Shown one piece after another: positions 4,458 through 7,249 of a DNA stretch of 64,000 nt. The notes beneath the pieces were generated by a model. It was not told where the DNA came from, did no database searches, and saw nothing but the letters and a program-made list of their open reading frames with translations. The position numbers and the translations under genes were made by a program. Position 1 is the first letter of the stretch. Each line of letters begins with the position of its first letter. Source of the stretch: Devosia sp. FJ2-5-3. Its GTDB lineage: Bacteria; Pseudomonadota; Alphaproteobacteria; Rhizobiales; Devosiaceae. The stretch is from positions 654,501 through 718,500 of the forward strand of contig NZ_CP104007.1 in the NCBI RefSeq assembly GCF_029201545.1. Reading direction: 5' to 3'.

Positions 4458-4531
4458 TGGAGCGGGTGAAGGGAATCGAACCCTCGTCGTAAGCTTGGGA
4501 AGCTTCTGCTCTACCATTGAGCTACACCCGC
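4458..4531 (-). tRNA. tRNA-Gly (anticodon CCC)
   Basis: 74-nt cloverleaf on the minus strand with encoded CCA. Acceptor arms GCGGGTG and CACCCGC pair perfectly; the D arm is GCTC/GAGC; the anticodon loop TTCCCAA gives CCC; the T arm is GAGGG-TTCGATT-CCCTT. The first anticodon-stem pair is a G-A mismatch, the other four pair. The 256 bases between the RTX gene and this tRNA, and the 188 bases from it to the dCTP deaminase gene, show no further feature. Confidence 0.95.
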
Positions 4532-4719: not shown

Positions 4720-5826
4720 TCAGCCCTCGAACGGCTTGAAGTGCTTGGACAGCTTGAGCGTCTGGGCCTGGTAGTTGGAGCCGAGCGCGGTGCCGTAGAG
4801 CCGGTCGGGGGCTTCGGCGAGCTCTTCATAGACCAGCCGGCCGATGGTCTGGCCGTGGCCGAGCAGGAACGGCACTTCGCGGCTGCGCACTTCGAGCACG
4901 GCGCGGCTGCCGGTGCCGCCGGCCTCCGAGTGGCCGAAGCCGGGATCGAAAAAGCCCGCATAGTGGACGCGGAATTCACCCACCAGCGGATCGAATGGCA
5001 CCATTTCAGCCGCGTGGGTCGGGGGCACATGCACGGCTTCGAGGCTGACGAGAATGTAGAATTCATCCGGGTCGAGGATCAGCTCGGCGCGGTCACGGCT
5101 ATAGATCGGCTCCCAGAAATCGAGCACGTCGAGCGCGCCCTTCTTGTCGACATCGACCACGGCGGTGTGACGTTTGGAGCGGAAGCCGACAAGCCCGTTG
5201 CGGCCTTCGCCGCGCAAATCGATGGAGAGCGCAACGCCTTCGCCGACCGGCTGTTGGCCGTCGACGACGAGGGTCTGGCTCTGGTGGAGGGCAAGGTGCT
5301 CGGCGGCGTTGAGGCGGCTGTCCCCCGAGCGGAACCGCATCTGGCTGAGGCGCGAGCCCGTGCGCACCAGGATCGGGAAGGTGCGGGGGCTGACTTCGAG
5401 ATAGAGCGGGCCTTCGTAGCCGGCCGGCATCTGGTCAAAGCCCCGCGCCCGGTCACCGATAACGCGGGTGAAGACGTCCAGGCGCCCGGTCGAGCTTTTC
5501 GGATTGGCCGAGGCGCTGACATCGGCGGGGAGTTTGAGGCTTTCCTGCAGCGGCACGAGATAGACACAGCCGCGCTCGAGCACCGCGCCCTGGCTGAGGT
5601 CGATTTCGTGGAGTTTCAGCGCTTCGATGCGTTCGGCCACCGAATGGGAGGGACCGGGCAGAAAGCTCGAGCGCACGCGAAAGGCTTTTGCGCCGAGGCG
5701 CAGATCGAGGCTGGCCGGCTGGACCTGGTCGACATCGAATGGCGTCGTCGAGACGATCGCCGCTTCCTTATGGAGCTTTTCGATCAGTCGCGCCGGGAAA
5801 ACGCCCTTGGGCCAAAGCTCGGTCAT
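4720..5826 (-). CDS. Double-domain 2'-deoxycytidine 5'-triphosphate deaminase
   Basis: 368-residue protein of the Dcd/dUTPase fold, about twice the usual 185-190 residue Dcd. It would deaminate dCTP to dUTP for thymidylate synthesis. The N-terminal half carries QPASLDLRLG (36-45), SSTGRLDV (111-118), GYEGPLYLEVSP (136-147) and RTGSRLSQMRF. The second half repeats the fold with DPGFGH (294-299), RAVLEVRS (308-315) and GQTIGRLVYE (325-334). Long tandem forms like this are common in rhizobial relatives. The two halves may divide catalysis and trimer packing; that is inference. ATG at 5826. It is divergent from the SAM-II/metZ leader. Confidence 0.85.
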   Translation of the reverse strand: MTELWPKGVFPARLIEKLHKEAAIVSTTPFDVDQVQPASLDLRLGAKAFRVRSSFLPGPSHSVAERIEALKLHEIDLSQGAVLERGCVYLVPLQESLKLPADVSASANPKSSTGRLDVFTRVIGDRARGFDQMPAGYEGPLYLEVSPRTFPILVRTGSRLSQMRFRSGDSRLNAAEHLALHQSQTLVVDGQQPVGEGVALSIDLRGEGRNGLVGFRSKRHTAVVDVDKKGALDVLDFWEPIYSRDRAELILDPDEFYILVSLEAVHVPPTHAAEMVPFDPLVGEFRVHYAGFFDPGFGHSEAGGTGSRAVLEVRSREVPFLLGHGQTIGRLVYEELAEAPDRLYGTALGSNYQAQTLKLSKHFKPFEG

Positions 5827-5936
5827 GGTGCCCCATCAATCCGGTACAAAAATGCTTGCACTCCCCTAGCAAAGGCAAGCGCATTGCGCCACCGTCATTG
5901 ACGCGCCCCGGCAATTGCCGTTAAATCGCGCCCCAT

Positions 5937-5990
5937 AGTGGTGATTTGGCCGGTCGCTTGCAGCCACTCAAAACAAATAGCTAAAGACCG
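5937..5990 (+). promoter_or_regulatory. SAM-II riboswitch (metA-type) upstream of metZ
   Basis: The leader matches the compact SAM-II aptamer of alphaproteobacteria: P1 strands AGTGG (5937-5941) and CCACT around 5964, the conserved GTGATTTGG segment, the A-rich CAAAACAAATAGCTAAA linker and the closing pseudoknot. Pseudoknot helix P2 is visible as CGGTC (5951-5955) with GACCG (5986-5990). It senses S-adenosylmethionine and represses methionine biosynthesis genes. It lies 50 bases before the metZ start, the expected target gene. Confidence 0.93.
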
Positions 5991-5993
5991 TCG

Positions 5994-6023
5994 AACCGGC
6001 CGCCCTTGCGCGCCGGTTTTTTT
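5994..6023 (+). terminator. Intrinsic terminator / attenuator after the SAM-II aptamer
   Basis: AACCGGC (5994-6000) and GCCGGTT (6012-6018) form a 7-bp stem with an 11-nt loop, followed directly by a T-run ending at 6023. It ends 17 bases before the metZ start. The 5' arm ACCGGCC (5995-6001) is also the exact complement of GGCCGGT (5948-5954) inside the aptamer, so aptamer, terminator and an antiterminator are mutually exclusive. Confidence 0.8.
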
Positions 6024-6040
6024 GTTGAAAGCGACGCGCG

Positions 6041-7249
6041 ATGACCAAAGCCCACAACCCGCTCCTTGACCCCAAGCGCCGCGCGGCGGCGACACAAATG
6101 GTCCATGGCGGGGGCAAGCGAACCGCCTTCAACGAGACCAGCGAGGCGCTTTTCCTCAATTCGGGATATTCCTATCCGTCCTCCGAGCATGCCGAGCTGC
6201 TGTTCCAGAACAAGATCGAGGGCGCGCACAATTACTCGCGCTTTGCCAACCCGACCATGGATATGTTCCAGGACCGGATGGCGCTGCTCGAAGGGGCTGA
6301 AGCGGCCCGCGCCTTTGCCACCGGCATGGCTGCGGTGACCAATGCGATCATGAGCCAGGTGCGCGCCGGCGACCATATCGTGGCCGCGCAGGCCCTGTTC
6401 GGCGGCTGCCGCTATGTGGTGGAAGATTACGCGCCGCGCTTTGGCGTAGAATCCACCCTGGTCGACGGGCGCGATCCCGAGAATTTCGCCCGCGCCATGC
6501 GCCCCAATACCAAGGTCGTGTTCCTCGAAACCCCGACCAATCCGACGCTGGAGCTGGTCGACATCGCGGCGGTGGCGGAAATCGCCCATGCCCACGGCGC
6601 CAAGCTGATCGTGGACAATGTGTTTTCGACCGCGCTCTGGCAGAAGCCGCTCGAGCTGGGGGCCGATCTCGTCACCTATTCGGCCACCAAGCATATTGAC
6701 GGGCAGGGCCGGGTGCTGGGCGGCGTCGTGCTGGGGTCGAAGGCGCTCATTGAAGGGGAGGTGCACACTTTCCTGCGCCAGACCGGGGCAACGCTCTCAC
6801 CCTTCAATGCCTGGGTGCTGCTCAAGGGGCTCGAAACCTATGCGCTGCGCGTCCAGCACATGACGGACAGCGCCGAAAAGATCGCCAATGCCCTGGCCGG
6901 TCATCCCAAGATCGCCCGCGTGGTCTATCCGCACCACGAGAGCCATCCGCAATACGAATTGGCCAAGCGGCAGATGAAGCGCGGCTCGACGCTGATGGCG
7001 ATCGATCTCAAGGGCGGTCAGGAGGCGGCGTTCACGCTGTCCGACAGCCTTGCCGTGGTGCTGATCTCCAACAATCTGGGCGATTCGAAATCGCTGATCA
7101 CCCATCCGCGCACCACCACCCATGCGCGCCTCACCGAAGAGGTGCGCCTCGAAACCGGCGTCACCCCGGGGCTCTTGCGCCTGTCGGTCGGGTTGGAAGA
7201 CGCCGACGATCTGATTGCCGATCTGATGTACGGGCTGGATCAGGTGTGA
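6041..7249 (+). CDS. metZ: O-succinylhomoserine sulfhydrylase
   Basis: 402-residue PLP enzyme of the Cys/Met metabolism family. It converts O-succinylhomoserine and sulfide into homocysteine, the direct-sulfhydrylation route to methionine. The PLP lysine is K217 in SATKHIDGQGR; ETPTNPTLELVDI (163-175), VDNVFSTALWQKP (191-203) and RFANPTMDMFQ are family motifs. The length is normal. It is placed under the SAM-II riboswitch and attenuator, which supports a methionine role. The start ATG at 6041 has only a weak GAAAG ribosome site. It could use the O-acetyl substrate instead; MetZ is favoured by length and the riboswitch context. Confidence 0.93.
   Translation: MTKAHNPLLDPKRRAAATQMVHGGGKRTAFNETSEALFLNSGYSYPSSEHAELLFQNKIEGAHNYSRFANPTMDMFQDRMALLEGAEAARAFATGMAAVTNAIMSQVRAGDHIVAAQALFGGCRYVVEDYAPRFGVESTLVDGRDPENFARAMRPNTKVVFLETPTNPTLELVDIAAVAEIAHAHGAKLIVDNVFSTALWQKPLELGADLVTYSATKHIDGQGRVLGGVVLGSKALIEGEVHTFLRQTGATLSPFNAWVLLKGLETYALRVQHMTDSAEKIANALAGHPKIARVVYPHHESHPQYELAKRQMKRGSTLMAIDLKGGQEAAFTLSDSLAVVLISNNLGDSKSLITHPRTTTHARLTEEVRLETGVTPGLLRLSVGLEDADDLIADLMYGLDQV

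Follow-up and report, generated by a model that had tools for sequence, protein, structure and literature searches.

A probable SAM-II transcription attenuator ahead of metZ in Devosia sp. FJ2-5-3 with the P1-loop strand as candidate antiterminator

The stretch of 64,000 nucleotides analysed here (the window; Devosia sp. FJ2-5-3, contig NZ_CP104007.1) carries metZ, an open reading frame for an O-succinylhomoserine sulfhydrylase of 402 aa (6041-7249, ATG at 6041; TIGR01325, 526.7 bits at a cut-off of 510). The minus strand opposite to metZ holds ordinary neighbours, namely a tRNA gene (4461-4531) and the gene of a 2'-deoxycytidine 5'-triphosphate deaminase (4723-5826, NF005734). The metZ leader, which like the gene and all features described below lies on the plus strand, contains a match to the SAM-II (SAM_alpha) riboswitch at 5928-6003. 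With 48.5 bits for RF00521 at a gathering score of 36, it bears out the aptamer class named in the first-pass annotation, and it is the only RF00521 match at E up to 0.001 in the 4.19 Mb genome. Both structural features of the class are present: the P1 hairpin, aligned by RF00521 as AGUGGU (5937-5942) and GCCACU (5963-5968), and the P2 pseudoknot, which joins the P1 loop to the 3' tail and for which the letters and the match agree on CGGUC (5951-5955, within the P1 loop) and GACCG (5986-5990), a duplex of -7.2 kcal/mol as computed. The position ahead of a methionine/SAM biosynthesis gene is likewise that of the class, and this aptamer very probably binds SAM.

A putative -35 element, TTGACG (5898-5903), and a weak putative -10 element, TTAAAT (5921-5926), are separated by a 17-nt spacer upstream of the aptamer. 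TTGAC is common in the leaders of the family and occurs within -62 to -38 of GATTTG in 93 of the 109 distinct Devosiaceae leaders, most often at -43 and -42; in the window the offset is -45. This suggests that the two elements (5898-5926) are the promoter of the metZ leader. A sigma-70 scan of the window, which demands an A at position 2 of the -10 element, returned no promoter there.

An intrinsic terminator hairpin follows at 5993-6019, in which 5993-6003 pair with 6008-6019 around the loop 6004-6007 (GAACCGGCCGC-CCUU-GCG(C)GCCGGUUU), with a U7 tract (6017-6023) behind. Its 11-pair stem with one bulged base, C6011, amounts to -17.1 kcal/mol and is present in the MFE fold of the leader; a consensus terminator scan, taking only loops of 3-8 and no bulge, missed it. 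The terminator lies 21 nt ahead of metZ, so that an intrinsic terminator (5993-6023) stands between aptamer and start codon, as an attenuator needs. An attenuator also needs a competing pairing that is incompatible with the terminator as well as with the ligand-bound fold, and one is present: GGCCGGU (5948-5954), overlapping the P2 5' strand, is complementary to ACCGGCC (5995-6001), the core of the terminator 5' arm, and this complement is kept in relatives. The helix has 7 bp and -13.3 kcal/mol in the window and can be extended with a bulged A to up to 10 bp and -16.9 kcal/mol. The first-pass annotation had read GGCCGGT, GACCG and ACCGGCC at these positions and a terminator before metZ, all of which is correct, and the three overlapping pairings that it described (P2, alternative helix and terminator) are indeed present and mutually exclusive through shared bases. 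Aptamer, terminator, complementarity, its conservation and this mutual exclusion were computed here. In the following, wiring A denotes capture of the arm by the P2 5' strand, located within the P1 loop, and wiring B capture by the P2 3' strand.

The crystallised metX SAM-II riboswitch offers a different precedent, translational control by direct occlusion, in which P2 holds the ribosome-binding site and which is well described for metX (PMC10907184). In the window, P2 contains no Shine-Dalgarno-like (purine-rich) sequence and hence no ribosome-binding site; the candidate Shine-Dalgarno sequence, a weak GAAAG at 6027-6031, lies outside the aptamer, 3' of the terminator and 36 nt 3' of P2. As the terminator is moreover conserved throughout Devosiaceae, direct occlusion appears very unlikely at this locus.

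The metZ leader is very probably an OFF switch of the known kind in which SAM-II controls transcription, and its antiterminator is most likely wired through the P1-loop strand. We consider the combined reading, a SAM-sensing OFF switch that attenuates transcription of metZ and uses the loop strand as antiterminator, to be likely. At low SAM, the loop strand GGCCGGU would capture the arm ACCGGCC as soon as it is transcribed, about 17 nt before the 3' arm of the terminator is complete, and RNA polymerase would read into metZ. At high SAM, the P2 pseudoknot (CGGUC with GACCG) would be fixed by the ligand; with 5951-5955 held and the loop strand occupied, the terminator hairpin would form, releasing a leader RNA some 90 nt long. 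In the cell, the antiterminator helix might leave P1 intact, which would make it a second pseudoknot in the loop that also holds the P2 5' strand, or it might form after P1 has opened. It is for SAM binding, SAM-dependent termination, the kinetic order and the helix in the cell that we infer rather than compute.

Folding of growing transcripts is compatible with such an order of events. When nested folds only are allowed, the MFE structure of a transcript ending at 6001 is the wiring A helix with P1 open (-14.9 kcal/mol). At 6005, 6010 and 6014, another fold beats nested wiring A by 1.6, 0.8 and 0.4 kcal/mol in this pseudoknot-free folding; read from the brackets, it would pair P2 and open P1. 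From 6018 the terminator fold is ahead (-26.2 versus -20.5 kcal/mol for wiring A), and at 6024 the finished terminator leads by about 7 kcal/mol (-27.7 versus -20.5). In these models wiring A is competitive early and loses late, as expected of a kinetically controlled attenuator. A third pairing, of the P2 3' strand with the terminator 3' arm and U-run (8 bp, -7.1 kcal/mol; family median -8.1), was considered and is not favoured, being weaker than the hairpin that it would have to break.

In a single sequence, the complementarity of arm and loop is only moderately surprising, and a chance coincidence is conceivable. Among 209 unrelated terminators from 0.99 Mb, three pair with the window aptamer loop at least as well, for which reason the single leader is not convincing; within the window itself, 1 of 22 terminators does so. 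Replacing the arm by shuffled versions gave p ≤0.01 in only 38/107 Devosiaceae leaders and p ≤0.05 in 94/107, and the whole metZ leader folds no better than its shuffles (z -0.82; 38/200 as good). GC-rich terminators in fact often pair with the window loop, 26 of the 209 controls reaching -14 kcal/mol or better, compared with 105 of the 107 distinct Devosiaceae leaders, which are related sequences. Such numbers speak against wiring A. A rival explanation needs no dedicated antiterminator: wiring A would be a leftover from an ancestor with the self-complementary GGCCGG, and termination would be constitutive or subject only to P2, to pausing or to control of the promoter. The folds that slightly surpass wiring A between 6005 and 6014 fit this explanation, as do two points made for S. 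meliloti (PMC9373788): SAM binding is predicted to leave a metA terminator behind SAM-II unaffected, and the promoters of metA and metZ are themselves less active at high SAM.

The relatives are more informative. The aptamer was found in 118 of the 136 family genomes searched (109 above the cut-off), and all 118 loci were taken. Of 327 loci, 25 escaped the first search pattern; the five among these that belong to the family (L108, L109, L112, L115 and L117) were read individually. Terminator, P2 and arm were all found in 107 of the 109 distinct parsed Devosiaceae leaders. The arm pattern YYGGYY ahead of a U-run occurs at 116 of the 118 family loci, although one of these matches (arm word CCGGTT, by sequence L015) sits at the P2 3' strand, before the true arm; the other two loci have the arm with an interrupted U-run. 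All seven positions of the 7-base arm can pair with the loop in 99/107 leaders and six of seven in the remaining 8/107, and loci L009, L011, L099 and L114, inspected one by one, keep the antiterminator. In 94 of 107 leaders the loop strand surpasses each of three other upstream segments as a partner of the arm by 2 kcal/mol or more. Alignment A1, which comprises 55 of 100 distinct Devosiaceae leaders, has 98.7% of cells paired for wiring A and 11-62% for slid versions of the same pairing. In addition, the base before the arm core is an A or G opposite U in 99/107 leaders, which counts against a leftover; the exceptions among the 107 are four leaders with A opposite C and four with C or T opposite U.

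The first-pass annotation had proposed GGCCGGT as the antiterminator and covariation of 5948-5954 with 5995-6001 as its touchstone. The proposal holds insofar as this strand is the strongest arm partner in most family leaders, but the touchstone gave nothing: both-side changes amount to 0/385 cells in alignment A1, four of the seven pairs never vary, and the pairing is kept, not co-varied. The lack of covariation can be counted in favour of a leftover. As the aptamer strand GGCCGG is invariant, however, the covariation test is uninformative for wiring A within Devosiaceae. The terminator stem did covary in the same alignment, with double changes at 4 pairs and in 21 cells, a result matched in 12/500 shuffles for the number of pairs and in 0/500 for the number of cells; P1 had 25 such cells, all at its outermost pair. 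Double changes in the terminator stem become rare once the part complementary to the loop is reached, which argues against a leftover (20/204 cells outside the loop-complementary core versus 1/330 inside, in cells that are not independent and in a stem whose ends are more variable anyway). The 6-base arm core has 5 substitutions in 642 cells, all of which keep the loop pairing as a wobble.

The 5' arm core and its 3' partners do not differ significantly in conservation (5/642 versus 11/633 cells differ, Fisher p 0.14). The terminator alone could therefore account for much of the conservation of the arm, again in keeping with a leftover. The invariant C6001 was considered as evidence independent of the terminator and rejected, given that folding pairs it via a 1-nt bulge; its counterpart is paired through the bulge in all but 8 of the 107 leaders, and all 8 keep the C. 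The prediction of wiring A rests on the kept complementarity, the loss of wiring B and the frozen arm. With wiring B absent and wiring A kept throughout Devosiaceae, we regard a leftover as unlikely and the loop-strand antiterminator as the better account.

Some family aptamers are unusual in themselves. In nine of them (L109-L117), the distance from the P1 3' strand to GCTAAA, 12 nt in the window, measures 25 to 152 nt, and L118 has a similar insert in alignment A1. The stretches inserted in L109-L117 mostly fold into hairpins and leave P1, its loop, P2, the antiterminator complement and the terminator intact; judged by these elements, the SAM-II linker tolerates large insertions. The 152-nt linker of L112 (689-840, minus strand) is one long imperfect palindrome of -62 kcal/mol. 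It partly matches 5 further sites of the genome that it comes from, as well as 9 and 15 sites in two relatives, and has no match in the genome of the window. It looks like a palindromic dispersed repeat inserted in the aptamer. Locus L108 has a P2 variant (loop GGCCGGUUCC, P2 3' strand GGAACC), and its arm AACCGGCC could pair with the loop over 8 bp.

Outside the family, wiring B takes the form of a nested antiterminator hairpin in other families and orders, for example the P2 3' strand GGTCGG with the arm CCTGACC. The comparison covered an order sample (90 loci, 60 of them picked for spread among families, from matches in 308/397 genomes), a class sample (70 loci, 40 picked by hand, from matches in 102/191 genomes; L346 and L349 unparsed) and a named sample of at least 119 stretches that includes the Devosia records L220, L234, L236 and L248 and doubtful matches such as L306. 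Duplex energies of both wirings were obtained for 304 of 353 distinct leaders, the other 49 being without terminator, P2 or arm, and a wiring was called when stronger by at least 2 kcal/mol, the remainder lying within 2. Wiring A was stronger in 106/107 Devosiaceae, 26/52 order and 5/49 class leaders and in 53/96 named leaders among the matches listed; wiring B in 0/107, 20/52, 29/49 and, among the matches listed, 16/96, respectively. This first comparison had used a longer strand for wiring A than for wiring B and was redone with equal lengths. Wiring A then led in 106/107 Devosiaceae, 12/52 order and 2/48 class leaders and in 42/96 named leaders among the matches listed, and wiring B in 0/107, 23/52, 35/48 and, among the matches listed, 16/96. 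A wiring A helix of at least 5 bp that overlaps P2 and the terminator is available in 43/48 order and, among the matches listed, 70/91 named terminator-bearing leaders; the misses are automatic calls and may include mis-assigned P2 helices.

The specificity of the pairings was assessed by permutation of own versus foreign partners in 46 class, 90 order-plus-named and 106 Devosiaceae leaders and in a mixed set of 91. For wiring B, 0/2000 permutations were as good in the class, order-plus-named and mixed sets alike, and specificity was absent in Devosiaceae (1985/2000 as good). Wiring A had weak or no specificity in the three sets (75, 455 and 59 of 2000 as good, for class, order-plus-named and mixed), and within Devosiaceae own partners were no better than foreign ones (1961/2000). 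By this measure, wiring B co-varies with the aptamer outside Devosiaceae and wiring A does not. One might accordingly ask whether the P2 3' strand captures the arm in a nested hairpin at the window locus, too, as wiring B is the stronger one in most class leaders and the one that co-varies. Here it would have only 3 bp and -3.7 kcal/mol, against -16.9 kcal/mol for wiring A, and it is the stronger wiring in none of the 107 Devosiaceae leaders. On pairing energy it was rejected for the window, and we hold it to be extremely improbable there.

Wiring was then compared with a MetZ tree of 139 rows. A MetZ fragment could be used for 102 family leaders, all of which scored A; 23 of these are in the tree, together with 116 others. 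The wirings are clustered on this tree, with 28 changes versus 65.4 in shuffles (0/200 as low). It is a quick tree, arbitrarily rooted and weak at many of its forks, which gives no direction of wiring change and on which the energies are proxies. Of 23 rows in the clade with the named Nitrobacteraceae, 20 are B and 3 both; of 10 in the Mesorhizobium group, 9 are A and 1 both; of 17 in a metZ clade consisting mostly of Rhizobiaceae, 16 are both and 1 is A. Phyllobacterium rows have both wirings. Leaders with the self-complementary GGCCGG allow both. A path between the wirings is conceivable because this word lets one leader do both. We tentatively propose, giving it somewhat less than an even chance, that two exclusive wirings of the SAM-II attenuator exist and that lineages moved between them via GGCCGG leaders, in which one arm serves both, while control was kept. 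On this proposal, Bradyrhizobium and its kin and many other sampled Alphaproteobacteria would use the nested hairpin of wiring B, and Devosiaceae and the Mesorhizobium group would use the pseudoknotted or long-range antiterminator of wiring A.

The searches also returned matches of other kinds. Contigs titled Gemmatimonadetes or Gemmatimonadaceae (L259, L271, L214 and L284) fit the core pattern of SAM-II, have loop strands of quite another sequence (AGGCGGA, for instance) and are candidate SAM-II elements only. On four class-level contigs (G541:C10, G675:C108, G631:C8 and G656:C10), two weak SAM_alpha matches lie on the same strand at a distance of about 110-1350 nt; these are possible tandems of SAM-II or of SAM-II with SAM-V.

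Termination behind a SAM-II aptamer, which the first-pass annotation had set against the frequent description of SAM-II as acting on translation, is not new. Such terminators were reported in 2005 (PMC1273637), and this arrangement was stated in 2007 to be the commonest one of SAM-II in alpha- and beta-proteobacteria (PMC2258182). For Sinorhizobium meliloti metZ, which resembles the window in aptamer class, gene and a terminator ahead of the start codon, SAM-dependent termination has been predicted, and the effect of metK depletion agrees with that prediction (Scheuer et al. 2022, PMC9373788). At high SAM, the RZ sRNA of about 100 nt goes up there and metZ mRNA goes down (PMC9373788). Rhizobiaceae metZ leaders sampled here, among which S. 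meliloti metZ was not identified, mostly have both wirings, in contrast to the loop-strand wiring only of Devosiaceae, and often have a hairpin of P2 3' strand and arm, e.g. GACCGG/CCGGTC. In the open-licence literature we found no strand-level antiterminator model for SAM-II, while Fig. S1 of PMC9373788 may hold one for S. meliloti metZ. The whole-riboswitch covariation models of 2026 concern fluoride, ZTP, lysine and TPP (PMC13273304); the text available of that paper mentions SAM-II once, and its methods list RF00162, not RF00521.

Three further systems are instructive. In the SAM-II/SAM-V tandem of Pelagibacter (PMC9481103, PMC11508383), SAM-II is described as a terminator switch and is followed, as in the window, by a hairpin and a U-run; unlike the window, the element is a tandem with SAM-V. 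According to SHAPE data on this tandem, the linker downstream keeps P2 of SAM-II from responding to SAM (PMC9481103, PMC11508383), as would competition by an expression platform. The transcriptional preQ1 riboswitch of Bacillus subtilis likewise couples a ligand-stabilised H-type pseudoknot to a terminator and the apo state to an antiterminator (PMC11625349, PMC3905878). It differs in its ligand and in an antiterminator formed from the A-rich L3, whereas the P1-loop/P2 5' strand would serve here (PMC11625349, PMC3905878). A beta-proteobacterial metXZ element shares with the window a metX/metZ leader, a pseudoknot and an alternative pairing followed by a terminator, but is described as a new element other than SAM-II, with a mechanism that is only proposed (PMC4239095).

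The novelty of the metZ leader as read here is one of wiring and not of kind: a predicted loop-strand antiterminator, as opposed to the P2-3'-strand option of many relatives. The metX SAM-II riboswitch, whose structure is the best known, is read as a translational switch, and SAM-II of alpha- and beta-proteobacteria has been reported as linked most often to terminators (PMC2258182). A base-level model with two wirings makes testable how a small pseudoknot riboswitch may gate termination, and how an expression platform may be rewired in evolution through a palindromic intermediate. The loop-strand wiring, contrasted with the P2-3'-strand wiring, is the part that deserves experiment.
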